A stretch of 64,000 nt of DNA from Salipiger mangrovisoli (GTDB taxonomy: Bacteria; Pseudomonadota; Alphaproteobacteria; Rhodobacterales; Rhodobacteraceae), in assembly GCF_015223355.1 (NCBI RefSeq), contig NZ_JADFFK010000004.1:1-64000 (forward strand). Reading direction: 5' to 3'. Positions 1,383 through 28,820 of the stretch are shown here, piece after piece. Numbering within the stretch: the stretch's first letter is position 1; each line of letters begins with the position of its first letter. The notes below the pieces were generated by a model. The model worked only from the letters and a program-made list of their open reading frames with translations. It searched no databases and was not told the DNA's origin. The position numbers and the translations under genes were made by a program.

Positions 1383-1392
1383 TGGTATACCA
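1383..1392. promoter_or_regulatory. Predicted GntR operator, copy 1 (TGGTATACCA)
   Basis: Perfect 10-bp palindrome between the divergent GntR gene and dctP. It is the first of five exact copies in the window. It resembles the hexuronate UxuR/ExuR motif as remembered from the literature. Binding is inferred. Confidence 0.75.
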
Positions 1393-1439
1393 AAAATTGT
1401 TGATTGTCGATCCCACCCTGAGGTAGCCTCGATTCCAGA

Positions 1440-1449
1440 TGGTATACCA
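1440..1449. promoter_or_regulatory. Predicted GntR operator, copy 2 (TGGTATACCA)
   Basis: Second exact copy, extended to ATGGTATACCAT at 1439-1450. It is centred 57 bp from copy 1 and 61 bp upstream of the dctP start codon. Two sites in one divergent promoter fit joint control of the regulator and the transporter. Confidence 0.75.
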
Positions 1450-1509
1450 TCCGGCGCTGTGAGGGAGCGCCGCAACCGGGGGAAAACCCCAAGCTTCTGG
1501 GAGGAAGAC

Positions 1510-2529
1510 ATGAAAGTTAAGACTTTGCTGAAGGCTGCGACCGCGGCCACGGTGCTTGCTGGCCCGGCTCTGGCTCAGGACGTGACGCTGCGCATCCAGA
1601 CGCATTACAACCCCGAGCAGACCTCGGGCAAACTTGCCGCAGAATTCGTCGATGACGTGGAGATGATGTCCGGCGGCGCGATCGACATCGAGATGTTCTA
1701 CGCCTCCTCCGTGGTGGCCACAGTCGAGACCTTCGACGCGGCGGCCAACGGCATTCTCGACTGCGACATGACCGGCGGTGCCTACCAGACCGGCAAGAAC
1801 GCCGGCTTCCAGTTCGTCGGCGACATCATGGGCGGCTATGACACGCCCTACCAGCAGCTGTCGTGGCTCTATTACGGCGGCGGTCTCGAGCAGGCGCAGG
1901 AACTGTACAACCAGTTCGGCATGCAGCTCATCGGCTGGTGGGTCTATGGCCAGGAATCGCTGGTCTCCTCGACCCCGATCACCGGCCCCGAAGACCTGAA
2001 GGACTGGAAGTTCCGCTCGCCGCCGGGGATGGAGACCGAGATCTTCGCCAACCTCGGCGCCTCGCCGATCGTGATGGACTTCACCGAGGTCTTCACCGCG
2101 ATGGAGACCGGCATCATCGAGGGCACCGATTATTCGGGTCTGGCGAACGACGAATCCATCGGCCTGTTCGATCTGGCCAAGCACGCCACCTACCCCGGCT
2201 TCCACTCGATGCCGTCGGACCACCTCGCGTGCAACAAGACCGTCTGGGACGGCCTGTCGGACCAGAACAAGCGCATCATCGAAACCGCCATGGAAAAGCT
2301 GGCCCTGCGCTCGGCGCTCTACTTCGAGAAGGCCAACAACGAGGCCGCTGCCCGTCTGACTGAAGCCGGCGTCACGCTGCACGACTGGTCGGTCGAGGAC
2401 CGCGCCACCTTCCGCAAGGCGGCACAGTCGGCCTGGGATGTCTGGGCCGAGAAGTCGCCGGAAGCCAAGGCGCTGGTCGAGAGCCACAAGGCGTACCTGG
2501 GCCAACTCGGCCTGATCTCTGCGGAATAA
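1510..2529 (+). CDS. dctP: TRAP transporter substrate-binding protein (DctP family)
   Basis: Periplasmic solute-binding protein of 339 residues, which captures an organic acid for the TRAP permease encoded next to it. A clear Sec signal peptide (MKVKTLLKAATAATVLAG, cleavage after PALAQ) fixes the start at 1510, with GGGAGGAAG upstream. The DctP fold is supported by the KFRSPPG segment, where the conserved arginine binds the substrate carboxylate, and by the following GASPIVMDFTEVFTAMETG region. The open frame extends far upstream without a usable start, so a longer product is unlikely. The context (dehydratases, KDG kinase) suggests an aldonate or uronate ligand, which is inference. A strong hairpin follows the gene. 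Confidence 0.93.
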   Translation: MKVKTLLKAATAATVLAGPALAQDVTLRIQTHYNPEQTSGKLAAEFVDDVEMMSGGAIDIEMFYASSVVATVETFDAAANGILDCDMTGGAYQTGKNAGFQFVGDIMGGYDTPYQQLSWLYYGGGLEQAQELYNQFGMQLIGWWVYGQESLVSSTPITGPEDLKDWKFRSPPGMETEIFANLGASPIVMDFTEVFTAMETGIIEGTDYSGLANDESIGLFDLAKHATYPGFHSMPSDHLACNKTVWDGLSDQNKRIIETAMEKLALRSALYFEKANNEAAARLTEAGVTLHDWSVEDRATFRKAAQSAWDVWAEKSPEAKALVESHKAYLGQLGLISAE

Positions 2530-2560
2530 GGCGCGCCCGCGCCTGACCTGAAAAGGCCAT

Positions 2561-2588
2561 GCGGCGGGCCCACGACCGGGCCCGCCGC
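2561..2588 (+). terminator. Hairpin between dctP and dctQ
   Basis: An 11-bp perfect stem (GCGGCGGGCCC against GGGCCCGCCGC) with a 6-nt loop and no T-run. It is better read as a partial terminator or mRNA-stabilising hairpin that keeps the binding protein more abundant than its permease than as a full stop. Confidence 0.6.
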
Positions 2589-2631
2589 TCCTGTCTCAGG
2601 AACCCTGTGACTCCTCCGAAAGGGTTAACCT

Positions 2632-3438
2632 ATGTCCAATCAAAGCCTCTGGCTCGGCGCGCTGCGCGGACCTGTGCGGCTACTGGCGCTCGCCAGCACC
2701 GGGCTGGCGCTGGCGGTCTTCGCCTGGCTCGTCCTAAGCCAGTTCATCTCGGCCGAACCGATCGGCATGTACGAGATGCTGCGCCCCGAGGGCCGACCGC
2801 TGGTGTCGGTGATGCTCTGGGCGCTCTTTGCCGCCCTGCTCTTCGGCTCGATCTTCCTGTCAGACCGTCGCGGCTCGATCGAGATCGAACCCACCGGCCC
2901 GCTCGACATCCTGTCACTGGTGCTCTCTCGCCTGTCGATGATCGGCATCGTCGCCGTGGTGCTGGTGATGTTCTACGAGGTCGTGGCGCGCTACGTCTTC
3001 GAGAAGCCCACGCTCTGGGCCAACGAGCTGTCGCTGTGGATCGCCTCCTTCGTGTTCCTGCTTGCCGGGCTCTACGCCATGCAGCAGCGCAGCCACATCC
3101 GCATCTACATCATCTACGACATGTTCCCGCGCTGGATGCAGAAGCTGGCCGACGTCATTTCGGTCTCGCTGATCTGGGTGTTCTTCTTCTGCCTGCTCTG
3201 GGGTGGCTACAACGAGGCCATGCAGAAGCTTGGCCGGATGGAAACCTTCGGCACCGCCTGGGATCCGCCCCTGCCTGCGACGCTCAAGATCGGGCTCATC
3301 ATCATCATCGGCCTCGTGGCCCTGCAGGCGCTGTCCAACCTCATCGCCGACTGGAACAAGGCCCCCGAACACCATTCGCCCGCGGACGAGATCGACGAAG
3401 TCGAGATCGAGAACATCCGTCGCACCCTGGAGGACTGA
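2632..3438 (+). CDS. dctQ: TRAP transporter small permease subunit (DctQ family)
   Basis: Four-helix membrane subunit that pairs with DctM. At 268 residues it is longer than the usual 160-200, because an N-terminal stretch of about 90 residues with two extra hydrophobic segments (around 15-35 and 60-80) precedes the DctQ core. The core has the typical FYEVVARYVFEKPTLWANELS motif and further helices at about 130-150, 175-195 and 215-240. The acidic C-terminal tail is cytoplasmic by prediction. It is separated from dctM by 5 bp, so the two are translated together. The extra N-terminal helices are the only oddity. Confidence 0.9.
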   Translation: MSNQSLWLGALRGPVRLLALASTGLALAVFAWLVLSQFISAEPIGMYEMLRPEGRPLVSVMLWALFAALLFGSIFLSDRRGSIEIEPTGPLDILSLVLSRLSMIGIVAVVLVMFYEVVARYVFEKPTLWANELSLWIASFVFLLAGLYAMQQRSHIRIYIIYDMFPRWMQKLADVISVSLIWVFFFCLLWGGYNEAMQKLGRMETFGTAWDPPLPATLKIGLIIIIGLVALQALSNLIADWNKAPEHHSPADEIDEVEIENIRRTLED

Positions 3439-3443
3439 CTTAC

Positions 3444-5039
3444 ATGGTGGATATCGGCACAATCAGCCTGATCCTGCTGCTGGCAATGTTCGCATTGCTG
3501 GCCATCGGGATGCCTCTGGGCTTCGCCTCCGCTTTCCTGGCAGTTGCGACACTTGTCATGAAATTCGGCCCCGACCTTCTTTTCGGGCGCTTTGGCATGG
3601 GACCCTTCGCGGTGCTCGGCCAGGCGGTCTACCGGCAGATGGTGAACTACGTTCTCATATCGGTGCCATTGTTCATATTCATGGCCTCGCTACTCGAACG
3701 CTCCGGCATCGCGCGGGACATGTACAGCTCGCTCAACGTGTGGCTGTCGCGCACCCGTGGCGGCATCGCCTTCGTGACCTCGATCATGGCCGTCATCATG
3801 GCCGCAATGTCGGGGATCATCGGCGGCGAGGTCGTGCTGCTGGGCCTCATCGCCCTGCCGCAGATGCTGCGTCTCGGCTACAACCAGAACCTCGCCATCG
3901 GCACGATCTGTGCCTCGGGCTCGCTCGGCACGATGATCCCGCCGTCGATCGTCCTGATCTTCTACGGCCTCGTCACCGAGACCTCGATCAAGGCGCTGTT
4001 CACCGCCTCCTTCCTGCCCGGCTTCATGCTGGCCTCGTTCTTCATGATCTACATCTTCGTCCGCACCCGGATGAACCCCGACGAGGCCCCCCTGCCCCCG
4101 GCAGACCCCAATGCCCCGGCGGGCGGTGAAAAGGCCCTCATGTTCCTCGGCTTCATCTCGCGCTTCGGCATGTGGATCGTGGCGGCGCTCACCCTGCGCG
4201 CGCTGTTCTTCACCGTGACCGGTGCCAACGTGGTGACCGAGGGCGTGGACCCGATCCCGCTCGGCATGGTCTCGGACATCCCGTGGCTCGTCGGCGCGCT
4301 GGTGATCTTTGCCATCGTGGTCTTCTTCATCGTCGGCCGTGAGCGCACCGCCGTCGGCTGGGAGATGGGCAAGGGCCTCATCGCCCCGACCGTGGTGATC
4401 GGCGTCGTGCTGGGCTCGATCTACGGCGGCATCACCGGCATCACCGAGGCCGCGGGCATGGGCGTCGTGGCGGTCTTCGTCATCGGCCTCATCCGCCGCG
4501 AGATGAGCTTCGAGGTGGTCTGGGATGCGGTCATGCGCACGCTCAAGTCCACCGGCACGATCATCTGGGTGACCATCGGCGCGGCAGCCCTCGCGGCGGC
4601 CTACACGCTGGCGGGCGGCCCGACCTACGTGGCCAACATGATCGTCGGCTCGGACCTGCCCACCATGGGGATCATCCTGGTGATGATGTTCATCTTCCTG
4701 ATCATGGGGATGTTCATGGACTGGGTCGGCATCGTGCTGCTGATCATGCCGGTGTTCCTGCCGATCGTCATGCGCCTGCCCGCCGAAGAGATCGGCTGGC
4801 TCGGCCATGTGGACAGCAGCTACATCGGCATCTGGTTCGGCGTGGTCTTCTGCATGAACATGCAGGTCAGCTTCCTGTCGCCGCCCTTCGGCCCCGCGGC
4901 CTTCTACCTGAAGTCCGTCGCCCCGGCGCATATCTCGCTGACCGACATCTTCCGCGGCTTCCTGCCCTTCATCGGGCTGCAACTGCTGGCGCTTCTGGTG
5001 CTGCTGGCCTGGCCGCCGATCGTCACGCTGTTCCTGTAA
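3444..5039 (+). CDS. dctM: TRAP transporter large permease subunit (DctM family), extended
   Basis: The ion-coupled transport subunit, with many membrane helices. The start MVDIGTISLILLL lies 5 bp after dctQ. Family landmarks include the GIIGGEVVLLGLIALPQMLRLGYN region, LGTMIPPSIVLIFYG and, near the end, FLSPPFGPAAFYLKSVAP. Length is 531 residues against about 430 for most DctM proteins. The surplus sits in the middle (about residues 210-320), where a proline-rich loop (PLPPADPNAPAGG) and two further helices are inserted. Together with the long DctQ this marks a distinct TRAP subtype. A 28-nt hairpin at 5048-5075 follows. Confidence 0.92.
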   Translation: MVDIGTISLILLLAMFALLAIGMPLGFASAFLAVATLVMKFGPDLLFGRFGMGPFAVLGQAVYRQMVNYVLISVPLFIFMASLLERSGIARDMYSSLNVWLSRTRGGIAFVTSIMAVIMAAMSGIIGGEVVLLGLIALPQMLRLGYNQNLAIGTICASGSLGTMIPPSIVLIFYGLVTETSIKALFTASFLPGFMLASFFMIYIFVRTRMNPDEAPLPPADPNAPAGGEKALMFLGFISRFGMWIVAALTLRALFFTVTGANVVTEGVDPIPLGMVSDIPWLVGALVIFAIVVFFIVGRERTAVGWEMGKGLIAPTVVIGVVLGSIYGGITGITEAAGMGVVAVFVIGLIRREMSFEVVWDAVMRTLKSTGTIIWVTIGAAALAAAYTLAGGPTYVANMIVGSDLPTMGIILVMMFIFLIMGMFMDWVGIVLLIMPVFLPIVMRLPAEEIGWLGHVDSSYIGIWFGVVFCMNMQVSFLSPPFGPAAFYLKSVAPAHISLTDIFRGFLPFIGLQLLALLVLLAWPPIVTLFL

Positions 5040-5047
5040 CGCGACCC

Positions 5048-5189: not shown

Positions 5190-6680
5190 ATGAAAACCGT
5201 CCGCCTTTCCGAACATGACAACGTCGTCACCGCAGTCGTCCCGCTGGAAGTGGGTGACGAGGGCGCGACCGCGCTGATCCCGCGCGGCCACAAGATGGCC
5301 ACCCGCGACATCGCCAAGGGCGAGGCGGTGCGCAAATACGCCCAGATCATCGGCTATGCCGCCGAGGACATCCCGCAGGGCGCCCATATCCACACCCACA
5401 ACCTCGAATTCCGCAACGTCGAAGCCGAGTACGAGTTCGGCACCAACCTGCACCCCGTCGCCCCCGCGGCGCAGCAGGACACGTTCATGGGCTACCGCCG
5501 CGCCACCGGCCGCGTCGGCACGCGCAACTACCTCGCGATCCTCACCTCGGTGAACTGCTCGGCCACCGCCGCGCGGATGATCGCCCAGCATTTCACCCCC
5601 GAGAAGCTCGCCGCCTATCCCAATGTCGACGGGGTGGTCGCCTTCGTGCACGGCACCGGCTGCGCCATGGGCGGCGACGGCACCGGCTTCGAGTTCCTGC
5701 AGCGCGTGCTCTGGGGCTATGCCCGCAACCCCAACATCGGCGGCGTGCTGATGGCGGGGCTCGGCTGCGAGGTCATGCAGATCGACTGGCTGGTGCAGGC
5801 CTACGGGCTCGAGCCCGGCCCGCTCTTCCAGAAGATGAACATCCAGGACGAGGGCGGGCTGCGCAAGACCGTCGAGCACGGCATCGCGCAGGTCGAGAAG
5901 ATGCTGCCCGAGGTCAACAAGGCCACCCGCACCCCCTGCCCCGCCTCGGAACTGATGGTCGCCCTGCAATGCGGCGGCTCGGATGCCTGGTCGGGCATCA
6001 CCGCCAACCCCGCCGTCGGCTACGCCTGCGACCTGCTGGTGGCGCAGGGCGGCACCGGCGTGCTGGCCGAGACGCCCGAGATCTACGGCGCCGAACACCT
6101 GCTCACCGCCCGCGCCGCGACGCCGGAAGTGGGCCACAAGCTGATCGACCTGATCCACTGGTGGGAGGATTACACCGAGCGCAACCGCGGCTCGATGGAC
6201 AACAACCCCTCGCCGGGCAACAAGAAGGGCGGTCTGACCACCATCCTCGAAAAATCCCTCGGCGCGGCGGCCAAGGGCGGCACCACGCCGCTCAACGGTG
6301 TCTACAAGTACGCCGAGCAGGTCACCGCGAAGGGCTTCACCTTCATGGACAGCCCCGGCTACGACCCTGCGTCGGTCACTGGCCAGATCGCCTCGGGCTG
6401 CAACCTCGTGTGCTTCACCACCGGCCGCGGCTCGGCCTTCGGCGCCAAGCCCAGCCCCTCGATGAAGGTCGCCTCGAACAACGAGCTCTACCAGCGCCAG
6501 ACCGAGGACATGGACGTCAACGCCGGGCGCATTCTCACCGAGGGCGCGACGGTCGAGGAGGTCGGCCGCGAGATCTACGAGATGTGGCTGCGCATGGCCT
6601 CGGGCGAGCAGAGCAAATCCGAAGCGCTGGGGCTTGGCGACTACGAGTTCGTGCCCTGGCAGGTCGGCGCGGTGATGTGA
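5190..6680 (+). CDS. uxaA: Altronate/galactarate-type dehydratase (UxaA family)
   Basis: Sugar-acid dehydratase of 496 residues, matching the usual length of full UxaA. Its family removes water from altronate (or a related aldarate) to give a 2-keto-3-deoxy acid. An N-terminal SAF domain (about 1-90, ending in AHIHTHNLEFRNV) is followed by the D-galactarate dehydratase/altronate hydrolase core. Core landmarks are TRNYLAILTSVNCSATAARMI, HGTGCAMGGDGTGF, ALQCGGSDAWSGITANPA and DNNPSPGNKKGGLTTILEKS. Conserved cysteines and histidines suit the iron or metal requirement of the family. The gene lies downstream of the TRAP genes and just upstream of a hydroxyacid dehydrogenase, so import and dehydration are probably co-expressed. 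Galactarate or another aldarate cannot be excluded. Confidence 0.85.
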   Translation: MKTVRLSEHDNVVTAVVPLEVGDEGATALIPRGHKMATRDIAKGEAVRKYAQIIGYAAEDIPQGAHIHTHNLEFRNVEAEYEFGTNLHPVAPAAQQDTFMGYRRATGRVGTRNYLAILTSVNCSATAARMIAQHFTPEKLAAYPNVDGVVAFVHGTGCAMGGDGTGFEFLQRVLWGYARNPNIGGVLMAGLGCEVMQIDWLVQAYGLEPGPLFQKMNIQDEGGLRKTVEHGIAQVEKMLPEVNKATRTPCPASELMVALQCGGSDAWSGITANPAVGYACDLLVAQGGTGVLAETPEIYGAEHLLTARAATPEVGHKLIDLIHWWEDYTERNRGSMDNNPSPGNKKGGLTTILEKSLGAAAKGGTTPLNGVYKYAEQVTAKGFTFMDSPGYDPASVTGQIASGCNLVCFTTGRGSAFGAKPSPSMKVASNNELYQRQTEDMDVNAGRILTEGATVEEVGREIYEMWLRMASGEQSKSEALGLGDYEFVPWQVGAVM

Positions 6681-6717
6681 CCGCCGCGCCTTCCTCTCCA
6701 CACAGGAAGGACAAGAC

Positions 6718-7602
6718 ATGAGCAAGCCCAGTATCGGGTTCATCGGGCTCGGCCTCATGGGCCGGGCCATGGTCGAATGCCTGCAGACGGCGGGCTACGA
6801 CGTGACCGTCCTCGGCAACCGCGACCGCAGCGGTGTCGAGGAGGCGCTGGCCCGCGGCGGCAGCGAGGCCCCCTCGGCCCGCGCGCTGGCCGAGACGAGC
6901 GACATCGTGATGCTCTGCGTCGGCACCTCCGAGCAGGTCGAGAGCCGCATCTTCGGCGAGGACGGCGTGCTGGCCGGCACAAGGGAGGGCCAGATCGTCA
7001 TCGACTTCGGCACCTCCCTGCCCGGCTCGACCAAGCGCATCGGCGCCGAACTGGCCGAGAAGGGCGCCACTTATCTCGACGCACCGCTGGGCCGGACGCC
7101 CGCCCACGCCAAGGAAGGCAAGCTCAACATCATGTGCGCCGGGGACGAGACGGCCTACGCGCAGGTCAAGCCGGTGCTCGACGTGCTAGGCGAGAACGTC
7201 TTCCACCTCGGCCCGCTCGGCGCGGGCCATACGATCAAGCTGATCAACAACTTCTTCGCCATGACCACCGCCATGGCCATGTCCGAGGCCTTTGCCATGG
7301 CCGATGCCGCGGGCGTGCCGCGCGACAAGCTCTACGGCGTGCTCGCGGCGGGGCCGAACCATTCCGGCATGATGGATTTCGTGAAGAGCTGGGCAATGGA
7401 CGGCAAGATCGACCTCGCCTTCTCGGTGGACAACGCCGCCAAGGACGTGGGCTACTACCGCGCCATGGCCGAGGAGCTGGGGGCGCAATCGCGCATGTCC
7501 GGCTGTGCATCGGAAACGCTGGCCGAGGCCTTGCGGAACGGCTTCGCCGGGCACATGGTGCCGGAAATGGTCGACTACCTCTCCAAGCACCTGAAAGGCT
7601 GA
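6718..7602 (+). CDS. NAD(P)-dependent beta-hydroxyacid dehydrogenase (3-hydroxyisobutyrate dehydrogenase family)
   Basis: Oxidoreductase of 294 residues acting on a beta-hydroxy acid such as a tartronate semialdehyde or 3-hydroxyisobutyrate analogue. A Rossmann motif (GFIGLGLMGRAM) starts at residue 6, the substrate loop is DAPLGRTPAHAKEGKL, and the catalytic lysine lies in GAGHTIKLINN. AGGAAGG upstream supports the ATG at 6718. It is one of three paralogues of this family in the window (others at 15694-16617 and 27899-28792) and is most similar in wording to the 15694 protein. The substrate is probably downstream of a keto-deoxy acid aldol cleavage, but this is inference. Confidence 0.87.
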   Translation: MSKPSIGFIGLGLMGRAMVECLQTAGYDVTVLGNRDRSGVEEALARGGSEAPSARALAETSDIVMLCVGTSEQVESRIFGEDGVLAGTREGQIVIDFGTSLPGSTKRIGAELAEKGATYLDAPLGRTPAHAKEGKLNIMCAGDETAYAQVKPVLDVLGENVFHLGPLGAGHTIKLINNFFAMTTAMAMSEAFAMADAAGVPRDKLYGVLAAGPNHSGMMDFVKSWAMDGKIDLAFSVDNAAKDVGYYRAMAEELGAQSRMSGCASETLAEALRNGFAGHMVPEMVDYLSKHLKG

Positions 7603-7639
7603 GTTTATGTCCCTCCTCCCGGCGCGGACGCGCTGAGCC

Positions 7640-8548
7640 ATGGCGATTGCCCCCCGCGAAGACCGGACGGCTTTTGGCCTGACGCTGATGGCGCTTGCCG
7701 TGCTCGGCTTCACCTGCATCGACACCTCGGCCAAATGGCTGCTGCAGCACGGGCAGCCGGCGTTGCAGGTGGTCTGGTGCCGCTACGCCGGTCACCTCGT
7801 GCTGGTGCTGCTGACCTTCCTGCCGCGCGAGGGGGTGGCGCTGTTCCGCACGGCGCATCCCTGGAAACAGACGATGCGCGCCGCCGGGCTCTTCGGCAGC
7901 ACCATGCTGAACTTCCTCGCGCTGGCCTACCTGCCGATCACCGTGACCACCACGATCATGTTCGCCGGCCCCATCGTGGTGACCCTGCTGGCGATCCCGA
8001 TGCTGGGCGAGAAGGTCGGCCCGCACCGCATCGGCGCGGTCTGCGTGGGCTTCCTGGGCGTGCTGGTGGTGATGCAACCCTGGGGGGCCGAGTTTCACCC
8101 GGCGATGCTGCTGTCGATGGGCGCGCTCTGCTGCGCAGCGCTCTATTTCATCCTGACCCGGCAGCTGGCGGGCAAGGAGAGCAACGCCACCTCGCAGGTC
8201 TGGGGCGGTGCCTTGCCGACGCTGCTGCTGGCACCCTTCGTGCTGCCGCACTGGCAGGTGCCGGAAACCACCGGCACCAGCGTCGTGCTGGTGATCATCG
8301 GCATCTTCGGAGCGGTGTCGCACATGCTGGCGACAGCGGCGCACCGCTATGCCGACGCCTCGGTGCTGGCCCCGATGGTCTACCTGCAGCTGATGAGCGC
8401 GGCAGCGGCAGGGCTGCTGATCTTCGGCAGCTGGCCGACGGTCTGGACGCTGCTCGGGGCGCTGATCATCATCGGCGCGGGGCTCTACATCTGGCACCGC
8501 GAACGGCGGCGCGGGGTGCCCCATTCGAAGATCACCCCCCGGCTCTGA
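7640..8548 (+). CDS. DMT superfamily (EamA) permease
   Basis: Integral membrane protein of 302 residues with about ten hydrophobic segments in two EamA repeats (roughly residues 12-145 and 160-290). The first repeat opens with ALAVLGFTCIDTSAKWLLQ and the second contains GAVSHMLATAAHRYADASVLAPM. EamA proteins export or exchange small metabolites. It lies 37 bp after the dehydrogenase gene and is the last plus-strand gene of the TRAP operon. Substrate unknown. A hairpin-containing intergenic repeat follows directly. Confidence 0.88.
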   Translation: MAIAPREDRTAFGLTLMALAVLGFTCIDTSAKWLLQHGQPALQVVWCRYAGHLVLVLLTFLPREGVALFRTAHPWKQTMRAAGLFGSTMLNFLALAYLPITVTTTIMFAGPIVVTLLAIPMLGEKVGPHRIGAVCVGFLGVLVVMQPWGAEFHPAMLLSMGALCCAALYFILTRQLAGKESNATSQVWGGALPTLLLAPFVLPHWQVPETTGTSVVLVIIGIFGAVSHMLATAAHRYADASVLAPMVYLQLMSAAAAGLLIFGSWPTVWTLLGALIIIGAGLYIWHRERRRGVPHSKITPRL

Positions 8549-9653: not shown

Positions 9654-9732
9654 CAGGGGCCGCCTCATCCTTCTGGTGCGTCCCCGATAGGACAGAGCCC
9701 GCCGATTGTAAATCGCCGGGGCTCCTGCTGGT

Positions 9733-10467: not shown

Positions 10468-10528
10468 GAATTTCCTCCCAAGGAAACGGCGCGGGCGTTG
10501 GTCTCGCCCGCGCCGGAAAAGCTTCGTG

Positions 10529-12399: not shown

Positions 12400-12409
12400 T
12401 GGTATACCA
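12400..12409. promoter_or_regulatory. Predicted GntR operator, copy 3 (TGGTATACCA)
   Basis: Exact copy inside a longer perfect palindrome, ATTTGGTATACCAAAT at 12397-12412. It lies between the divergent dehydratase gene (start 12310) and azlC (start 12533), so it may serve either side. Confidence 0.75.
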
Positions 12410-16617: not shown

Positions 16618-16640
16618 GAATCTCTCCTCCCAAAGATGGT

Positions 16641-17402: not shown

Positions 17403-17501
17403 AGTTGCTCCTCTTCCCCTGGCCCCACCGCAAGGCGCGGGAGGGCTGCGGTGATCCGCAACCCCCATTGACAAACAGGGGCGGGACCGTATTCAGGAAA
17501 A

Positions 17502-17511
17502 TGGTATACCA
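17502..17511. promoter_or_regulatory. Predicted GntR operator, copy 4 (TGGTATACCA)
   Basis: Exact copy between the divergent SDR gene (start 17402) and the LysE-type gene (start 17632). It could control both the minus-strand dehydrogenase pair and the plus-strand run up to the MFS gene. Confidence 0.75.
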
Positions 17512-18231: not shown

Positions 18232-18260
18232 CACATGACGACCTATCGGGAGGACCCATA

Positions 18261-19172: not shown

Positions 19173-19208
19173 CCCCGCGCCGGTCCGCCCGGACGCAAGG
19201 CAAAGCCG

Positions 19209-19228
19209 CCGGGCGGTCAACCGCCCGG
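19209..19228 (+). terminator. Hairpin after the DapA-like gene
   Basis: A 9-bp stem CCGGGCGGT/ACCGCCCGG with a 2-nt loop and no T-run. Probably an mRNA processing or attenuation structure inside the operon. Confidence 0.45.
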
Positions 19229-19302
19229 CTCCCGAGGCGCTGGCCCCTGCCCCGGTTGAGGACGGAGCTGCGCCCGGCACGCCACCTTTGGAGACCCACG
19301 CA

Positions 19303-20676: not shown

Positions 20677-20725
20677 CCGCCCGCCCCACACCTGACATGC
20701 AAGACTGAAGACGGAGGAGACCCCC

Positions 20726-21877: not shown

Positions 21878-22779
21878 CCGCCTTCCTCGCCCTCGGAGAA
21901 TGTATGGTGGAACTGTCGCAGGCCGGAGACGGCCTCTACAAGCGCGGCTTTGCCGGCGACACGTTCAACACCGCCTGGTATGCCCGCCGCCTGCTGCCGC
22001 AGGACTGGACGGTGAGCTACGGCACCTGCGTGGGCGAGGATGCGGTGAGCAGCGAGATGCTCGAGTTCATCTCGGGCGAAGGCGTCGATGTCTCGACCGT
22101 GCGCCGCGTCGCGGACCGCACCGTCGGGCTCTACATGATCTCGCTCGAGAACGGCGAGCGCAGCTTCTCCTATTGGCGCGGCCAGTCCGCGGCCAAGCTG
22201 ATGGCCGACGACCTTGGCTGGCTCGACGGCATCCTCAAGGGCCGCGAGATGATCCACTTCTCTGGCATCACGCTCGCCATCCTGCCGCCGAAGCAGCGCG
22301 AGGCCTTCTGCGGCGCGCTGGCCCGCGCCCGCGCCAAGGGGGCGATCGTGTCCTTCGACACCAACCTGCGCCCGCGCCTCTGGGAAAGTGCCGACGCCAT
22401 GCGCGCCGGGCTGACCATGGGCGCGCGCACCGCCGACATCGTGCTGCCGAGCTTCGACGAGGAAGAAGAGCTCTTCGGCGACGCCTCGCCGCTGGAGACC
22501 ATCGAGCGCTATCGCACCGGAGGCGCGGATATGGTGGCGGTGAAACAGGGCGGCGCGGCGCTGCACCTGTGGCAGCGCGAGGCGGGTCAGCACGAGATCG
22601 CCGCAGAGCTCGTGACCGAGGTGGTCGACACCACCGCCGCGGGCGACAGCTTTGCCGCCGGGCTGCTGGCCGGGCTGGCGCAGGGCAAGGCCCCGCAGGC
22701 CGCCGCCGCAGAAGCCATGCAGCTCGCCGCCAAGGTAATCCAGGCGCGCGGCGCGCTGGTGCCCTCGATCTTCGGCTGA
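21874..22779 (+). CDS. kdgK: PfkB family 2-keto-3-deoxygluconate kinase
   Basis: Sugar kinase of 301 residues with the ribokinase fold. The N-terminal GECMVELSQAG and GGD-like FAGDTFNTAWYARRL region, plus the PfkB signature DTTAAGDSFAAGLLAG with its catalytic aspartate, are typical of KdgK. It phosphorylates 2-keto-3-deoxy-gluconate or a homologue, feeding the Entner-Doudoroff route. The start is GTG at 21874, which overlaps the FAH-family stop by 4 bp, so translation is coupled. No KDPG aldolase gene is found in the window, so that step must be encoded elsewhere or replaced by the DapA-like lyase. Confidence 0.87.
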   Translation: MTAFLALGECMVELSQAGDGLYKRGFAGDTFNTAWYARRLLPQDWTVSYGTCVGEDAVSSEMLEFISGEGVDVSTVRRVADRTVGLYMISLENGERSFSYWRGQSAAKLMADDLGWLDGILKGREMIHFSGITLAILPPKQREAFCGALARARAKGAIVSFDTNLRPRLWESADAMRAGLTMGARTADIVLPSFDEEEELFGDASPLETIERYRTGGADMVAVKQGGAALHLWQREAGQHEIAAELVTEVVDTTAAGDSFAAGLLAGLAQGKAPQAAAAEAMQLAAKVIQARGALVPSIFG

Positions 22780-22919
22780 GCCCGGCGCAGGCGGCGATGC
22801 GCCGCCTGCCGCCACGACACGGAGCATTGTGGCGGCGTGCCGGCGGGTTCCTGTTGACCTCAACCGGACTTGGGGAACTACGGTCCTTGCGACTCGACTG
22901 ACCCTTCGAAGGACACGCC

Positions 22920-24203
22920 GTGACCCTGTCTGCCTCAAGCCCCCTGCGCCGATTCATTCTGGCCAGCGGCGTGACCAACCTCGCCGATGGCGTCGCGGTT
23001 GTGGTCTGGGCCTGGCTCGCCACGCTGCTGACCCGCGATCCGCTGCTGGTCACGCTGATGCCGATCACGCTGCGGCTGCCGTGGTTCCTGTTTGCACTGC
23101 CCGCCGGGGTGATCACCGACCGCACGGACCGGCGGCGTCTCATCCTTTGCATGGACGTGGTCCGCGCCTGCGCCTTCGCGCTGGCGGCGCTGGCGATCTG
23201 GCTGGCACTGCCGCTGCCGCCCGCGCCGGACAGCGGCACCGCCAGCCCCACCCTCTTCGCCGCGCTGCTGGCCTGTGCGCTGCTGGTCGGCACCGCCGAG
23301 GTGTTCCGCGACAGCGCCGCGCAGACCATGCTGCCCGCCATCGTCCCCCACGATCAGCTGGAGCGCGCCAACGGGCGGCTGTGGAGCGTCGAAATGGTTG
23401 GCAACGCGCTGCTCGGCCCAGCGGTCGGGGCGTTTCTCATCGCCTCGGTGGTCTGGCTGCCGTTCGCGCTGAACGCCGTCTGCTTCCTTCTCGCGGTCGG
23501 TCTGATGCGGTCGCTGCGCGGCCGCTTTGCCCCGCGCCGCGCCGAAGCCCGCGACTGGAAGCAGGATCTCGGCGAGGGGCTGGTCTTTCTGCGCGGCTCG
23601 GCGCTGCTGCGGCTCCTGGCAGTGATCACCGGCGTGTGGAACCTGTTGCACCAGATGGTGGTGATCGCGCTTGTGCTGCACGTGCAGGAGAACCTCGGGC
23701 TCGGCGCCTCGGGCTACGGGCTGATCCTCGCCGCCGGGGCGGTGGGCGGCGTGCTGGGCGGGATCTTCGCCGAGCGCATCGTGCGCAGGCTCGGCAACGG
23801 CCCCTCGGCGCAATGGATGACGCTGGCCTCGGCGCTGGCCTTCGCCGCGCTGCCGCTGGCGCCGACCGGCTGGGCGCTGGCGGCGGTCTTGGCGGCGTTC
23901 GAGTTCTGCGGGCTGGTGTGGAACACGGTCTCGGTCTCTTACCGGCAGCGCCACGTGCCCGACGAGATCCTCGGACGGGTCAATGCCACCTACCGGCTTT
24001 TCGCCTGGGGGATGATGCCGCTCGGCCTGCTGCTGTCTGGGCTGGTGATCCGCCTCGCCGAGGCGGGGATGCCCCGCGCGCTGGCGCTTCAGATGCCCTT
24101 TGTCGCCGCCGCAGCCGGGGTCATCGTGCTGACCGTCTGGGCCTGGAGACGTCTCGACGCGGGCTTTGCCGGGGCAGACAAGACAGGCGCGCGCTCGGCC
24201 TGA
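22920..24203 (+). CDS. MFS transporter (EntS/MFS_3 type)
   Basis: Major facilitator of 427 residues with about twelve helices. The signature loop after helix 2-3 reads GVITDRTDRRRLILCMD, and the central half-repeat contains RGSALLRLLAVITGVWN. This subgroup mostly exports small molecules. The GTG start at 22920 has AAGGA upstream. A 140-bp gap from kdgK leaves open whether it shares the operon. It converges with the hydroxyacid dehydrogenase gene and is followed by stacked hairpins. Confidence 0.88.
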   Translation: MTLSASSPLRRFILASGVTNLADGVAVVVWAWLATLLTRDPLLVTLMPITLRLPWFLFALPAGVITDRTDRRRLILCMDVVRACAFALAALAIWLALPLPPAPDSGTASPTLFAALLACALLVGTAEVFRDSAAQTMLPAIVPHDQLERANGRLWSVEMVGNALLGPAVGAFLIASVVWLPFALNAVCFLLAVGLMRSLRGRFAPRRAEARDWKQDLGEGLVFLRGSALLRLLAVITGVWNLLHQMVVIALVLHVQENLGLGASGYGLILAAGAVGGVLGGIFAERIVRRLGNGPSAQWMTLASALAFAALPLAPTGWALAAVLAAFEFCGLVWNTVSVSYRQRHVPDEILGRVNATYRLFAWGMMPLGLLLSGLVIRLAEAGMPRALALQMPFVAAAAGVIVLTVWAWRRLDAGFAGADKTGARSA

Positions 24204-24276: not shown

Positions 24277-24293
24277 GGCCCGGTCGACAGGCG

Positions 24294-25229
24294 TCAGTTC
24301 ACCGGCGTCAGCAGCGCCTTGCCGGCAAGGAAGGCCGCGATGTTGTCGCGCTGGAGCTGGCCCATGGCGCTGCGCGTCTCCTTGGTCGCCGAGGCCTGGT
24401 GCGGTTGCAGCACCACGTTCTCGAGCGCCAAGAAGCGCGCGTCGGGGTTCGGTTCGTTGAGGAAGACGTCGAGGCCCGCGCCCTGGATCGTGCCCTGTTG
24501 CAGTGCCGCGATCAGCGCCTCCTCGTCCACGGTGGTGCCGCGGGAAATGTTGATCAACACGCCGGTCGGGCCGAGCGCCTCGATCACTTCCCTGGACACG
24601 TAGCCCTCGGTGGCCGGCCCGCCAACCAGCGCGATCACCAGGAAGTCCACCTCGCGCGCCAGCGACACGGGATCGGCGTGGAAGGTCCAGCCGGGCGTCT
24701 CCTTCTCGGAGCGCGCGTGGTAGTGCATCTCCATCTTGAAGGCCGCCAGCCGGTCGGCGATCTCGCGGCCGATCCGGCCCATGCCGAGGATGCCCACCTT
24801 CTGGCCGCTCATCTTGCGCTGCAGCGGGTGCGACCCCTCTTTGCCCCAGGCGCCCGAGCGCACCCGCGCCTCGGCCCGGCGCATGTCGCGGCAGAAGTCG
24901 AGCAGCATGGCCACGGCAAGATCGGCCACGTCGTCGTTCAGCACGTCGGGCGTGTTGGTCACCTTGATGCCGCGCGCCGAGGCGTCGCCGACGTTGATTG
25001 CGTCATAGCCCACGCCGAAGTTGGCGATCAGACCCAGCGCGGGAAAGGCGTCCATCTCTGCGCCGGCAAAGGGGGTGTGGCCGTAGAAGGCGATGGCCTT
25101 CACGCCCTTGCGGGTCTCTTCGTCCAGCGCCTGCGCGGCATCGAGGCTTTCCACGTGGGTCCAGCCCAGCCCGGCCAGCGCCTCGCGGCTCATCTGGTCG
25201 GGCTTGCCGACTGCCAGTACGTCCGTCAT
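24294..25229 (-). CDS. D-isomer-specific 2-hydroxyacid dehydrogenase
   Basis: NAD(P)-dependent reductase of 311 residues. The NAD-binding domain is inserted at about 100-280 with GILGMGRIGREIADRL. The catalytic arginine lies in NISRGTTVDEEAL, and the acid-base histidine in QPHQASATKETR. It belongs to the glyoxylate/hydroxypyruvate reductase branch. The start at 25229 (MTDVLAVGKPDQ) was preferred to upstream starts lacking homology. It ends the five-gene tetronate operon, 19 bp after the OtnI-like gene, so reduction or oxidation of hydroxypyruvate or glycerate-like products is likely. Confidence 0.88.
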   Translation of the reverse strand: MTDVLAVGKPDQMSREALAGLGWTHVESLDAAQALDEETRKGVKAIAFYGHTPFAGAEMDAFPALGLIANFGVGYDAINVGDASARGIKVTNTPDVLNDDVADLAVAMLLDFCRDMRRAEARVRSGAWGKEGSHPLQRKMSGQKVGILGMGRIGREIADRLAAFKMEMHYHARSEKETPGWTFHADPVSLAREVDFLVIALVGGPATEGYVSREVIEALGPTGVLINISRGTTVDEEALIAALQQGTIQGAGLDVFLNEPNPDARFLALENVVLQPHQASATKETRSAMGQLQRDNIAAFLAGKALLTPVN

Positions 25230-25248
25230 CCGTTCAATCCTTCTCGGT

Positions 25249-26028
25249 TCAAGCCAGCGCCGCGCGCAGGGGGGCCAGCCAGCCGAGACCGGCCTTCGTG
25301 TCCCCGCCGCGCGGCTTGTATTCCGCACCCACCGGCGCTTCCCACCCGGCGTCCGCGAAGGAGGCCAGCAGGCGTTCGAAGCAGATCTCGCCGCCATCGG
25401 GCTCGCCGCGATCGGGCACTGCGGCGATCTGCACGTGGCCGATCATCGGCAGGTGCGCGGCGAAGCGTTTCGTCAGGTCGCCCTGCATGATCTGCGTGTG
25501 GTAGCAGTCGAACATGATGCGCAGGTTGTCGCGGCCGAGCGCCTCGACGATCTCGGCGGCATGCTCGACGCGGGCAAGGTGATAGCCCGCCACGTCGCGG
25601 TGGTTGATCGGCTCGATCAGCACGCCCATGCCCGCAGCCCCTGCCAGATCGCAGGCGAGCGAGAGCGTCTCGCGGTAGGCCGCCTCGGCCGCCGCGCCGC
25701 CATCGGTGCGGCCCGCCATCACGTGCACGTTGCGCGCGCCGATCGCCGCGCCGTAGGCCACCGCCTGCCGCACCGCCGCCGCCGCGTCCTCGCGCCGGTC
25801 CGGCAGGGCGGCGAGGCCGAAGTCGCCCGCCGCGGGGTTGCCCGGTATGGTGTTGAGCCCGAGCATGGCAAAGCCGGTCTCGTCCAGCGCCGCCTTCATC
25901 TCGGCAGCGGGCACGTCATAGGGGAAGTGGCATTCCACCGCGTCGAAGCCGTCGCGTTTCGCCGCGCGGATGCGCTCGGGCAGCGGCAGTTCGGTGTAAA
26001 GAAAGCCGATATTGGCGGAAAACTTCAT
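25249..26028 (-). CDS. otnI: Hydroxypyruvate isomerase family, 2-oxo-tetronate isomerase (OtnI)-like
   Basis: TIM-barrel isomerase of 259 residues. It has the family start MKFSANIGFLYTELPL, with metal ligands visible as Glu in LIEPINH, Asp/His in MFDCYHTQI, His in GHVQIAAVP and Glu in GAEYKP. In D-erythronate/threonate catabolism OtnI moves the keto group from C2 to C3. Placement directly behind OtnC- and OtnK-like genes (3-bp gap) supports this over plain hydroxypyruvate isomerase (Hyi). The two cannot be separated by sequence reading alone. Confidence 0.82.
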   Translation of the reverse strand: MKFSANIGFLYTELPLPERIRAAKRDGFDAVECHFPYDVPAAEMKAALDETGFAMLGLNTIPGNPAAGDFGLAALPDRREDAAAAVRQAVAYGAAIGARNVHVMAGRTDGGAAAEAAYRETLSLACDLAGAAGMGVLIEPINHRDVAGYHLARVEHAAEIVEALGRDNLRIMFDCYHTQIMQGDLTKRFAAHLPMIGHVQIAAVPDRGEPDGGEICFERLLASFADAGWEAPVGAEYKPRGGDTKAGLGWLAPLRAALA

Positions 26029-26031
26029 GTC

Positions 26032-26676
26032 TCAGTCCCAGTCCACGTCAAACTTGTCGACCACCTTCTTCACCTGTCCGGAGGTCAGAATCCGCGGCTG
26101 GCGGCCATGCAGCAGCAGCGCAAGCTTGGCGGTCTCCTCGAGCTCTTCCATCGCGTAGACGGCGGCCTCGAGGTCCTTGCCCGCCACCACGGGGCCATGG
26201 TTGGCCAGCACCACCGCCGAGCGCTTGCCGGCAAGCCCGCGCACCGCGTCGCCCATGGCCGGATCGCCCGGCACGAAGAAGGGCAGCAGCCGCACCTTGC
26301 CGAGCCGCATGACCGCATAGGCGGTGAGCGGAGGCAGCAGGTTCTCGGGGTCGATGTCGGGCATCATCGACCAGGCGACGGCGTGGCACGAATGCAGGTG
26401 CACCACCGCCCCGGTCTTGCCGCGCGTCTCGTAGAAGGCGCTGTGCAGCGGCATTTCCTTGGTCGGGGCGTCACCGCTTATGAGGGTGCCCTGCGCATCG
26501 AAGCGCGACAGCCGCGCCGGATCGAGGCTGCCGAAACTCGAGCCGGTGGGCGAGACCAGCAGCCCGCCATCCTCGGTGCGCGCCGAGATGTTGCCCGAGG
26601 CGCCGCCGGTGAGGCCGCGCGCGAACATCGACGCGGCCATCTCGCAGATCTGCTCGCGCAGCTTGCTCTCGCTCAT
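26032..26676 (-). CDS. otnC: Class II aldolase/adducin family, 3-oxo-tetronate 4-phosphate decarboxylase (OtnC)-like
   Basis: Zinc-dependent class II aldolase-fold protein of 214 residues. The segments GGASGNISART, PTGSSFG, EMPLHSAFYE, the zinc histidines of VVHLHSCHAVAW and the late VLANHGPVV are all in order. In tetronate pathways this family decarboxylates 3-oxo-tetronate 4-phosphate to dihydroxyacetone phosphate. The start overlaps the stop of the OtnK-like gene by 4 bp. L-fuculose-phosphate-type aldolase is the alternative, but the kinase partner favours OtnC. Confidence 0.85.
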   Translation of the reverse strand: MSESKLREQICEMAASMFARGLTGGASGNISARTEDGGLLVSPTGSSFGSLDPARLSRFDAQGTLISGDAPTKEMPLHSAFYETRGKTGAVVHLHSCHAVAWSMMPDIDPENLLPPLTAYAVMRLGKVRLLPFFVPGDPAMGDAVRGLAGKRSAVVLANHGPVVAGKDLEAAVYAMEELEETAKLALLLHGRQPRILTSGQVKKVVDKFDVDWD

Positions 26677-27899
26677 GCGCCCTGCTCCATGACCCGCGCC
26701 GCCTTGGCAAAGAAATCCACCGCGCCGAAGTTGCCGGATTTCAGCGCAAGCACCATCTCGCCGGCGCGCATGACCGGCACGCCGGGGTCAATCTCGGGGC
26801 CGATCTCAAGCGCCTCGGGGGCCAGCGCCTCGACCACCGCGCCCGAGGTCTCGCCCCCGGCGCTGATGATGCGCTTCACGCCCTTGGCGGCCAGCGCGGC
26901 AGCGGTCCGGGCAAAGAGCCCCTCGAGCGCGGCGGCGACCTTCTCGCGGCCATGCCTACGCTGTGCCTCAGCCACCGTCGCGGGCTCGGCCGAGGAATAG
27001 ATCAGCGGCAGCCCGTCCTGCGCCAGCGCCCAGTCCGCAAGCGTGTCCGCCGAGAGCCCGCCGAGCGCCTCCTCGGCGGTGACCTCGCGCTTCGGGCCTT
27101 CGTGGGCAGCGACCTGCGCCCGCGTGGCGTTCGAGCAGGAGCCCGACAGCGCGACCGCTCGCCCGCCCTGCCCGGTCCATGCCCCGGCCTTGCCCGACAG
27201 CGCGAAGTTGCCCGGCAGACCGAGCGCGATGCCCGAACCGCCGGTGAGCAGCGTGGTGCCTTTCAGCGCCTTGCCCCAGGTCAGCAGGTCCTCGTCGCGG
27301 ATCGCGTCGGCGATGACGAAGCCGCGGTCCGCCTCCGTTTCGGAGGCCAGCCGCGCGCGGATTGCCTCGGGCCCCTGCCAGACGGTGCTGGCGGGCACAT
27401 GGCCGACGCCGCGCGATACCTGCGCGGCGAGCACGCGCCGCAGGTCCGGATCGGTCATCGGGGTCAGCGGGTGGTTTTCCATGCCCGACTCCGAGAGCAG
27501 GTGATCCTGCACGAAGAGATGGCCCTGGTAGATCGTCCGCCCTGTCGCCGGGAAGGCCGGGCAGAAGATCACGCTCCGGGTGCCGAGCGCATCCGCCAGC
27601 GCCTCGGCGACCGGGCCGATATTGCCCTCGGGTGTCGAGTCGAAGGTCGAGCAATACTTGAAGAGGAATTGCTCGCAGCCCTGCGCCTTCAGCCACTCCA
27701 GAGCCTCCAGCGACAGTTTCACCGCCTCGGCGGCGGGGATGGACCGCGATTTGAGCGCCACCACCCCGGCCTCGACCTCGGGCGCGGCATCGTCCTTCGG
27801 CACACCGACGTATTGCACGGTGCGCATGCCCTGCTTGACCAGCGTGTTGCCAAGATCGCTCGAGCCGGTGAAATCGTCGCCGATACAGCCCAGCAGCAT
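26673..27899 (-). CDS. otnK: Four-carbon acid sugar kinase (OtnK/LtnK, DUF1537 family)
   Basis: Kinase of 408 residues with the N-terminal sugar-acid-binding domain (MLLGCIGDDFTGSSDLGNTL at residue 1) and the C-terminal nucleotide-binding domain (ISAGGETSGAVVEAL near 345, then GPEIDPGVPVM). These are the hallmarks of the DUF1537 tetronate kinases. It phosphorylates a 3-oxo-tetronate at C4. It overlaps both neighbours by a few bases (ATGA-type), a sign of tight coupling. D- versus L-specificity (OtnK or LtnK) is not resolved. Confidence 0.9.
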   Translation of the reverse strand: MLLGCIGDDFTGSSDLGNTLVKQGMRTVQYVGVPKDDAAPEVEAGVVALKSRSIPAAEAVKLSLEALEWLKAQGCEQFLFKYCSTFDSTPEGNIGPVAEALADALGTRSVIFCPAFPATGRTIYQGHLFVQDHLLSESGMENHPLTPMTDPDLRRVLAAQVSRGVGHVPASTVWQGPEAIRARLASETEADRGFVIADAIRDEDLLTWGKALKGTTLLTGGSGIALGLPGNFALSGKAGAWTGQGGRAVALSGSCSNATRAQVAAHEGPKREVTAEEALGGLSADTLADWALAQDGLPLIYSSAEPATVAEAQRRHGREKVAAALEGLFARTAAALAAKGVKRIISAGGETSGAVVEALAPEALEIGPEIDPGVPVMRAGEMVLALKSGNFGAVDFFAKAARVMEQGA

Positions 27900-28792
27900 C
27901 AGGCGTCTCCGGGCAGGGTGAGGCCGGCCGCGCGGGCGTAGACCTTGATCACCGCGGCATCATCGACCAGCCCGTCCCCTGCCTCGGCGGCGGACTTGAA
28001 CTGCGCCAGCGCGGCCTCGGTCATCGGCACCGGCAGTTTCGCCTCGCCTGCAATGCCGCCGACGATCCCCAGATCCTTGGGCCAGATATTGACCGCCGAG
28101 CGCGGCGTGTAGTCGCCCTCGACCACATGTGGGCCGCGGTTCTCGAACATCCAGCTGCTGCCCGCCGAGGCGGAGATCACCTCGACGATGCGCGCCGGAT
28201 CGAGCCCCTGGCTGATGCCGAGCGCCATCGCCTCGCCCATGGCGGCGATATGCACCCCCGCGAGAAGCTGGTTCACCGCCTTCATCGCGCTGCCCGCCCC
28301 GGCGTCGTCGCCCAGACAGTGCACGGTGGCAGCCATGGCGTCGAGCGCCGGCTCGGCGGCGGCAAAGGCCTCGGGTGCACCCGAGGCCATGATCGAGAGC
28401 TGCCCCTGCGCCGCCTTGATGGCCCCGCCTGAGATCGGCGCGTCGAGGTAGTGCAGGCCCTTGGCAGAGGCCATGTCCGCGAACTCACGCGCCTGGCTGG
28501 GCGCGATGGTTGCACAGGAGATGATCGCCGCGCCCTCGGGCAAATGCGCTGCCGCGCCGCCCTCGGCGAAGAGCACCTCGTGCGTCTGAGCGGCGTTGAG
28601 CACCACGCAAACTAGGATCGAGCTTGCGCCCAGCGCCTCAGCGAGGCTGCCAGGAGCCCCGCCCTCGGCCTCGAAGGCCGCCGTCCGCTCGCTCGAGATG
28701 TCCAGACCGTGCACCACGTGCCCCGCGCGCAGCAGGGATTGTGCCATGCCCATGCCCATCGAGCCGAGCCCGATCACCGTGATCTCTGCCAA
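27899..28792 (-). CDS. ltnD: L-threonate dehydrogenase-like protein (LtnD, HIBADH family)
   Basis: First gene of the tetronate operon: a 297-residue NAD-dependent dehydrogenase that would oxidise L-threonate or D-erythronate at C2. It has GLGSMGMGMA at residue 6, DAPISGGAIKAAQGQL as substrate loop, and the catalytic lysine in GAGSAMKAVNQLL. The short GGAIKAA loop differs from the GRTP loop of the two other paralogues here, matching the LtnD branch. GGGAGGAGC precedes the start. TGGTATACCA (copy 5) lies 18 bp upstream of the start codon, close enough to block transcription or initiation. Confidence 0.87.
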   Translation of the reverse strand: MAEITVIGLGSMGMGMAQSLLRAGHVVHGLDISSERTAAFEAEGGAPGSLAEALGASSILVCVVLNAAQTHEVLFAEGGAAAHLPEGAAIISCATIAPSQAREFADMASAKGLHYLDAPISGGAIKAAQGQLSIMASGAPEAFAAAEPALDAMAATVHCLGDDAGAGSAMKAVNQLLAGVHIAAMGEAMALGISQGLDPARIVEVISASAGSSWMFENRGPHVVEGDYTPRSAVNIWPKDLGIVGGIAGEAKLPVPMTEAALAQFKSAAEAGDGLVDDAAVIKVYARAAGLTLPGDA

Positions 28793-28810
28793 AGTGCTCC
28801 TCCCGCAAAA

Positions 28811-28820
28811 TGGTATACCA
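28811..28820. promoter_or_regulatory. Predicted GntR operator, copy 5 (TGGTATACCA)
   Basis: Exact copy 18 bp upstream of the ltnD-like start codon on the minus strand. This places the tetronate operon in the same predicted regulon as the TRAP/UxaA operon 27 kb away. Confidence 0.75.

Follow-up and report, generated by a model that had tools for sequence, protein, structure and literature searches.

A ten-letter palindrome as the predicted operator of an FCD-type GntR regulator beside a sugar-acid gene island of Salipiger mangrovisoli

The 64,000-nucleotide stretch of Salipiger mangrovisoli DNA analyzed here (the window; contig NZ_JADFFK010000004.1, positions 1 to 64,000) raises the question of which protein, if any, reads the ten-letter palindrome TGGTATACCA that recurs in the promoter gaps of an island of sugar-acid genes. 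We propose that in this marine bacterium the palindrome is, very probably, bound by the neighboring regulator, a GntR-family protein with an FCD ligand domain (583..1266, minus strand), and that this site has been kept across many related bacteria. In its full form the proposal, to which we give a probability of about 0.8, is that TGGTATACCA is the core operator of this protein, which would act as a ligand-released repressor of the island and of distant genes. A regulon of this kind, predicted by the standard route, is well known and represents ordinary gene control. What is new is its predicted extension beyond the island, a core that is not exclusive to one regulator, and a putative clamp of two operator subtypes around one promoter, which would be an unusual arrangement.

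The palindrome, its promoters and the adjacent regulator

The palindrome is found exactly at 1383, 1440, 12400, 17502 and 28811, the five positions given in the original prediction, and there is no further exact match in the window. The earlier expectation of 0.06 copies, which assumed uniform base frequencies, was too high, as the window has a G+C content of 67.2% and 0.016 copies are expected at that composition, while the rarity itself is confirmed by 100 dinucleotide shuffles that yielded no match. All five copies are intergenic, as had been claimed, with site centers 24-122 bp from the nearest gene start in a window of which 87.8% is coding according to our own gene caller. None of 29 further palindromes built from the same half-site letters occurs more than once in the window, and the single one-mismatch copy of TGGTATACCA (50797) lies within a gene call (49548-51191).

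The contig that begins with the window is 301 kb long, and the whole genome (6.35 Mb) contains 11 exact copies and none of the same pattern read backwards. When one mismatch is allowed there are 31 further places compared to 60 for the backwards control; hence the near-matches are background and we rejected one-mismatch sites as a class of additional regulon members. The six copies outside the window are located 19-92 bp (site center) upstream of a gene start, one of which was re-assigned. Genomic copies away from promoters are therefore few: one of the 11 falls in the 3′ end of the gene before it, and even this copy is 62 bp ahead of the following start. We rejected a chance origin of the copies on account of the shuffles, the backwards pattern, the palindromes of equal composition and the intergenic placement.

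Conservation was assessed around the regulator itself, using the best 80 of 126 loci that have a GntR relative at 54-96% identity (1.46 Mb). These loci contain 164 exact copies, 149 of which precede a start by no more than 350 bp; none reaches deeper than 30 bp into a called gene, and the 29 palindromes of equal composition give 0-5 copies each. An exact copy is present within 300 bp upstream of gntR in 64 of the 80 loci, and two copies in 44. The genes downstream of the copies are mainly of the DctP (60), GntR (55) and IlvD (10) types, together with a few of the HIBADH, SDR, azlC, ltnD and DHDPS types and 24 that have no homologue in the window, three of which have KGSADH-like N-termini. Sites outside promoters are thus as rare in the related loci as the original prediction required, with 15 of the 164 copies unplaced. 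That the copies cluster by chance, or belong to a dispersed repeat with no regulatory function, has a probability close to nil, as the 15 unplaced copies are all that favors it, and the promoter placement, the conservation, the zero count in shuffles and the 0-5 copies of the control palindromes stand against it.

The same picture is seen in relatives that carry the island. Of 30 relatives searched, eight have a close OtnK orthologue (81-95%), and comparison of their islands shows that the site is kept between ilvD and azlC, between sdr and lysE, and before ltnD in 8/8 cases each. The gntR/dctP gap is readable in six relatives (in the other two the stretch consists of N) and has at least one copy in 6/6, so the orthologous promoters do keep their sites. 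The pair of copies is found in this gap in five of the six (G005, G009, G010, G016, and G015 via L012), and G008 has one copy there and a pair before a second dctP. In alignments of the three single-site gaps (nine genomes), in which 10-27% of gap columns are invariant, the core forms an invariant block, and the TTGACA of the predicted lysE promoter is also invariant.

The 583-1266 protein matches the Pfam GntR (58.4 bits) and FCD (86.5 bits) models above their cutoffs, and this arrangement of an N-terminal GntR winged helix and a C-terminal FCD domain places it in the FCD (FadR/VanR) subfamily of the GntR family; none of its 12 NCBIfam matches reached the cutoff. In the PDB it matches, by sequence, proteins of the GntR family such as NanR (6on4) and 6z74, the latter of which we take to be Atu1419. 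In 81 sequences the recognition helix (V44-I55) is invariant (81/81), the wing residues P66, R68, S69 and P70 are kept in 79-81, and the residues corresponding to a D/N-x3-H...H...H metal site are nearly invariant (D133, H137 and H181 in 81/81 and H203 in 80/81). Comparison with Atu1419 (PMC7797058) suggests that D133, H137, H181 and H203 are metal ligands. The FCD GntR consensus operator is palindromic with TKGT and ACMA boxes, and in the UxuR group there are two bases between GT and AC (PMC4494728). The palindrome agrees with both, as its TGGT and ACCA boxes flank AT and it has the TGGTNNACCA form with two nucleotides between GT and AC.

The number of copies also follows the regulator. At the genus level, genomes with an orthologue of at least 80% identity have 9-13 copies (seven genomes), those with an orthologue of 60-69% have 2-4 (seven genomes), and those with no match at E ≤ 1e-40 have 0-2 (15 genomes), the two exceptions (9 and 11 copies) being the genomes with an unreadable stretch. 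Among 120 genomes of the family, where scoring was confined to the best 24 candidates of each genome, the 17 with a regulator match (E ≤ 1e-60) have 3-11 copies and the 103 with no such match have 0-7, with a median of 1 (Mann-Whitney p = 5.9e-11, own genome excluded and kinship ignored). Together, the conservation at promoters, the counts at the 80 loci and the tracking of copy number with the regulator all favor the palindrome being the operator of the adjacent protein, as originally proposed.

A predicted promoter between two operators

The first two copies frame a predicted promoter of the TRAP transporter operon. The proposed operator O1 (1383..1392) lies on the gntR side, upstream of a putative −35 box (TTGATT; 1400..1405, plus strand). 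This box is followed after a spacer of 18 by a putative −10 box (TAGCCT; 1424..1429, plus strand) and, about 10 bp downstream of the latter, by the proposed operator O2 (1440..1449), the box coordinates having been counted by hand. Both operators match the core exactly. In relatives the flanks of O1 are of type A (AA outward), whereas those of O2 are of type B (GA...TC). Paired copies 54-60 bp apart are present in 49 of the 80 loci in addition to the window (in six loci one member has a mismatch), and the sequence that they enclose contains a conserved block, GTTGATTGTCGA, with at most two mismatches in 44/50 cases, and a TAGCGT-like box. When the boxes were located as the best fit to a consensus from the same loci, with spacers of 16-18 only, the −35 box begins 7 bp after the O1 core in 49/50 and is TTGATT in 42/50, the −35/−10 spacer is 17 in 43 and 18 in seven of the 50, and 8-13 bp then lead to O2.

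The distance between the paired sites is nearly constant (s.d. 1.0 bp) compared to that of the gntR-dctP gap (178-262 bp, s.d. 20.7 bp; correlation 0.37, n = 50, with the dctP start set by rule). This corresponds to the "common double site" type of divergon, in which the distance between sites is near constant while gap length varies (PMC4494728). Either contact between dimers or the fixed promoter that the two sites enclose could keep their distance constant, and we consider the promoter the simpler explanation.

The flanks divide these operators further. On both sides of O1 an A followed by A or T is found outward in 38/44 cases, while TC outward on both sides (GA...TC) is found at 31/44 O2 sites and at 0/44 O1 sites. 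Single copies before gntR (n = 20) are of type A in nine cases and of type B in six, and the 56 copies elsewhere have TC on both sides three times, two of which are in pairs before an extra dctP. We therefore read 1383 and 1440 as two predicted operator subtypes, TTTGGTATACCAAA and GATGGTATACCATC, clamping the predicted TRAP promoter, so that the single palindrome of the original prediction gives way to two conserved forms. No other copy in the same genome has GA...TC on both sides, and a second FCD paralogue dedicated to O2 was rejected. It is possible, albeit doubtful at present, that Rhodobacteraceae in general use one FCD repressor with two separately conserved subtypes (TTTGGTATACCAAA and GATGGTATACCATC) to clamp one promoter at a fixed spacing, such that the two ends of the clamp would answer different repressor or ligand levels and the flanks would separate paralogues that share the 10-bp core.

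In the mechanism that we propose, a dimer of the regulator would sit on every copy, on or close to the transcription start, and block RNA polymerase at the TRAP-UxaA, ilvD/azlC, sdr/lysE and tetronate promoters and at distant aldolase and dehydrogenase genes. A sugar acid, or a dehydrated sugar-acid intermediate, would enter the FCD pocket at the metal site and release the repressor, and the uptake and breakdown of several sugar acids would be switched on together. In the divergent gntR/TRAP gap the TRAP promoter would be clamped by O1, which immediately precedes the −35 box, and O2, which immediately follows the start, and O1 would also let gntR limit itself. The sites, where they lie, how they are conserved, their co-occurrence with the regulator gene and the conserved promoter-like boxes are observations, whereas the binding, its repressing rather than activating effect, the autoregulation, the transcription starts and the ligand are inferred.

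The protein could instead be an activator with O1 as its site upstream of the −35 box, as the 7-bp distance to that box is fixed and the −10 boxes are weak (TAGCGT). We consider this quite improbable, as O2 and the lysE and ltnD sites are downstream of predicted −10 boxes (an alignment reading for the latter two) and overlap the predicted start, a position from which a bound protein would block transcription, and FCD relatives are repressors, including Atu1419 (PMC7797058), NanR (PMC8012715) and, by record annotation, UxuR.

Two variations in the arrangement of paired sites were seen in relatives. In L148 (1582-3118), L016 and L080, the first two of which apparently are the same genome, a further dctP copy has its own operator pair, 57 or 55 bp apart, which suggests that the clamp promoter was duplicated together with dctP. 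In addition, pairs only 23-25 bp apart, approximately two helical turns, occur in L055, L019, L029, G069:C12 and G141:C3.

Rival readers of the palindrome

That the regulator is the only FCD-type GntR gene present, as the original prediction had it, is true of the window, where it is the sole FCD match on the contig, but not of the genome, which has 56 FCD matches. Two of the six copies outside the window are next to other FCD genes. One, flanked by G/C, lies between a divergent FCD-GntR gene (L003:754-1550, contig C33) and a presumably HMG-CoA-lyase-like gene, and the other is 37 bp (site center) upstream of a gene for a GntR-FCD::Ldh_2 fusion protein (L197:3147-4889, contig C55). The remaining four precede an HpaI/GarL-like aldolase gene (below NCBIfam cutoffs), an aldehyde dehydrogenase gene (its copy being the one that falls in the 3′ end of an upstream gene), a presumably AEC-like transporter gene, and a presumably KGSADH-like gene cut by the contig end. 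The start of the last of these was re-assigned, as its N-terminus matches four aldehyde dehydrogenases of relatives with an upstream copy (one of these enzymes scanned), which puts the site center 60 bp upstream.

Orthologues of several of these genes also have a copy. Counting the own genome in each case, an upstream copy is found with aldolase orthologues in three genomes, with aldehyde dehydrogenase orthologues at five loci in four genomes, with the FCD/lyase pair in four genomes (i.e., in three relatives), with the fusion gene in three genomes (the genes of the two relatives being cut by the stretch end) and with the AEC-like gene in two. This comparison covered 36 sites of relatives among the matches listed, and left aside the outside-island copies of G011, G014 and G015 and most of those of G010, as well as the copies in G001, G003, G004, G012, G017, G026, G029 and G030. 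The operator reading of the window operons is upheld, but a 27-kb regulon, as first described, is too narrow, with the aldolase, aldehyde dehydrogenase, KGSADH-like and AEC-like genes lying outside it.

The regulator cannot be told from the 10-bp core alone, since each of two further FCD regulators has its own copy, with different flanks, that relatives keep. The palindrome might then be a shared operator of the FCD family, with paralogues (the 583-1266 protein, L003, the GntR-Ldh_2 fusion and perhaps others of about 50) controlling the island jointly. The 56 FCD matches and the two self-adjacent copies kept in relatives are in its favor, as is the near identity of the wing in the fusion (RPNRSP compared to RPSRSP), whose site scores 3.0 on a matrix of flanking letters. 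Conversely, the L003 wing differs and the L003 site scores −25.7, compared to 6.6 to 12.8 for the four type A sites of the window, and it is the 583-1266 regulator that copy number tracks across the family, such that joint control is unlikely. The matrix was trained partly on the island and includes three of the window's four type A sites, and the wing comparison within the genome covered 17 of 30 FCD loci (by pattern match) plus L003, L197 and L199, the first and last of these being genes that were in the count before. The flanks at the other FCD-linked copies differ from those of the island (CCG...C at L003, TATA-like at the fusion), and the wing may read the flank; against a clean code of this kind, the fusion site (3.0) scores above the genome's own aldolase site (−1.4) on the island matrix.

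The LacI-type regulator (14701-15678) is another candidate reader, as it is encoded in the middle of the island, is kept there in 8/8 relatives and resembles gluconate repressors, below the cutoff. Yet no copy of TGGTATACCA precedes lacI, or the PhyH gene of the window, and a LacI homologue (45% identity, half coverage) is present at 0/80 GntR loci with up to 10 kb of flank searched, leaving LacI as the reader unsupported. Moreover, LacI operators usually have a central CG. We regard a LacI reader as highly improbable.

Several observations weigh against our assignment of the palindrome to the 583-1266 protein. Among the 80 loci, 15 of the 164 copies have no called start within 350 bp, and 16 loci have no exact copy before gntR, of which eight have exact copies elsewhere in the locus, six have only a one-mismatch copy and two (L022 and L042) have neither. 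Three of the 36 sites of relatives have no called start within 300 bp and six are inside the call of the upstream gene. Two genomes with no regulator match at E ≤ 1e-60 (among the best 24 candidates scored) have seven (G086) and five (G093) copies, where perhaps another FCD regulator uses the core. A gluconate-type LacI regulator is retained in the same island in 8/8 relatives, and L003 and the fusion own copies of the same core that are kept in relatives. The own aldolase (−1.4) and aldehyde dehydrogenase (−3.8) sites score below the fusion site on the flank matrix, while the aldolase sites of two relatives reach 8.0 and 10.5. Finally, related genomes are not independent, and loci L012-L016 apparently are from the same genomes as five of the eight island relatives.

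The fusion gene deserves mention in its own right. In the C55 gene a GntR-FCD regulator is in frame with a malate/L-lactate dehydrogenase (Ldh_2) domain in a protein of 580 residues, and related genes with a copy of TGGTATACCA are present in two relatives. When long-frame FCD genes were examined as possible fusions in the C55, C68, C15 and C3 stretches, that of C55 proved to be one, and the C15 gene encodes 216 residues.

Known systems and the genes of the island

Of the known systems, UxuR and ExuR of Escherichia coli (FadR subfamily, FCD) are similar in being FCD GntR proteins that control sugar-acid genes through TGGT/ACCA half-sites in which GT and AC are separated by two bases (PMC4494728). 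The E. coli gntP-uxuA gap contains TGGTCAACCA and TGGTTAACCA, which have the same half-sites and thus the TGGTNNACCA form twice; the exact core was rejected as a match, being absent from the uxuA region even with one mismatch. The regulator scores 42.7 bits with the ExuR equivalog model compared to a cutoff of 396, and hence it would work like UxuR/ExuR but is not classed as an orthologue, and the gene set differs in having TRAP, IlvD, tetronate and KGSADH-like members. Agrobacterium fabrum Atu1419, an FCD repressor of the VanR group, also recognizes a short 10-bp palindrome, with a central GTATAC (ATGTATACAT), that is present as three identical copies at −10 elements, two of them in one promoter region (PMC7797058). 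In that case a tetramer can loop the DNA between paired sites separated by 190 bp, whereas the paired sites here are 54-60 bp apart around one promoter, and Atu1419 belongs to a hydroxycinnamate pathway with folate as proposed effector (PMC7797058). E. coli NanR is likewise an FCD repressor with GGTATA units in its operator, but these are close repeats (PMC8012715), in contrast to the inverted repeat, single or widely spaced, that is found here, and the NanR model gives 70 bits with the regulator compared to a cutoff of 260. The GntR regulons named GguR or UxuR in Halomonas and others, also derived by comparative genomics, involve regulators of galactarate and glucuronate genes with a tripartite transporter, in other organisms and with other gene sets (PMC5507952). 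No paper naming the present regulon was found in the open-access literature by title or the start of the abstract, the passages of PMC5343134 and PMC5507952 do not name it, and papers containing the letters of the core seem, among the matches listed, unrelated by title.

The analysis provides a concrete predicted regulon for an uncharacterized FCD regulator that is found in many Rhodobacteraceae. By linking TRAP uptake with UxaA/GarD-like, IlvD-type, KGSADH-like and tetronate enzymes, it would allow their substrates to be searched for as one pathway set. The fixed arrangement of operator, promoter and operator, the two flank subtypes and the paralogues that share the core together offer a natural test of whether the GntR wing reads flanks.

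Most genes of the island are assigned to sugar-acid metabolism by Pfam and NCBIfam, and outside OtnK, OtnC and LtnD no island enzyme reached a substrate-specific NCBIfam cutoff. The operon read from the predicted clamp promoter encodes the TRAP transporter subunits DctP, DctQ and DctM (1510..5039, plus strand; Pfam), followed by a UxaA/GarD-like dehydratase, a GarR-like beta-hydroxyacid dehydrogenase and an EamA transporter (5190..8548, plus strand; Pfam), the dehydratase scoring 399.5 bits with the NCBIfam galactarate dehydratase model, below its cutoff of 730.85. The proposed operator at 12400..12409, an exact match, separates azlC and azlD (12533..13572, plus strand) from an epimerase, an SDR and an IlvD/EDD-type dehydratase (8652..12310, minus strand; Pfam) that we propose form a unit reading away from it. 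The IlvD protein is above the cutoff of the "dihydroxy-acid dehydratase" subfamily model (NF009560), AzlC (12533-13255) was identified by Pfam, and azlD was named by gene order and size.

A beta-hydroxyacid dehydrogenase and an SDR (15694..17402, minus strand; Pfam), the SDR being above the subfamily cutoff of NF005711, are on one side of the proposed operator at 17502..17511. This exact match lies at the predicted start of a putative lysE promoter with hand-counted boxes, TTGACA (17468-17473) and, after 16 bp, TATTCA (17490-17495), and on its other side are genes for LysE, a DHDPS-family protein, a GlcD-like FAD oxidase, a FAH-family protein, a KdgK-like kinase and an MFS transporter (17632..24203, plus strand; Pfam), whose NCBIfam matches are below cutoffs. 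The exact match at 28811..28820 precedes the ltnD start by 19 bp and would serve the tetronate operon (24294..28792, minus strand); on the far side of the site, at a distance of 259 bp, is trpA, which reads in the same direction as ltnD. The tetronate operon encodes a 2-hydroxyacid dehydrogenase, OtnI, OtnC, OtnK and LtnD, and is identified as an Otn/Ltn catabolic operon by NCBIfam matches of OtnC (NF043034), OtnK (NF043035) and LtnD (NF043037) above cutoffs, with OtnI at 261 bits, below its cutoff of 325. Judged from gene content and shared sites, these hexuronate-, pentonate- and tetronate-like genes may be joined in a single response. In three of the related loci (L020, L032 and L034) a copy of the palindrome is located 71-73 bp before a gene for a 389-residue protein, the N-terminus of which resembles that of an enolase-superfamily sugar-acid dehydratase.

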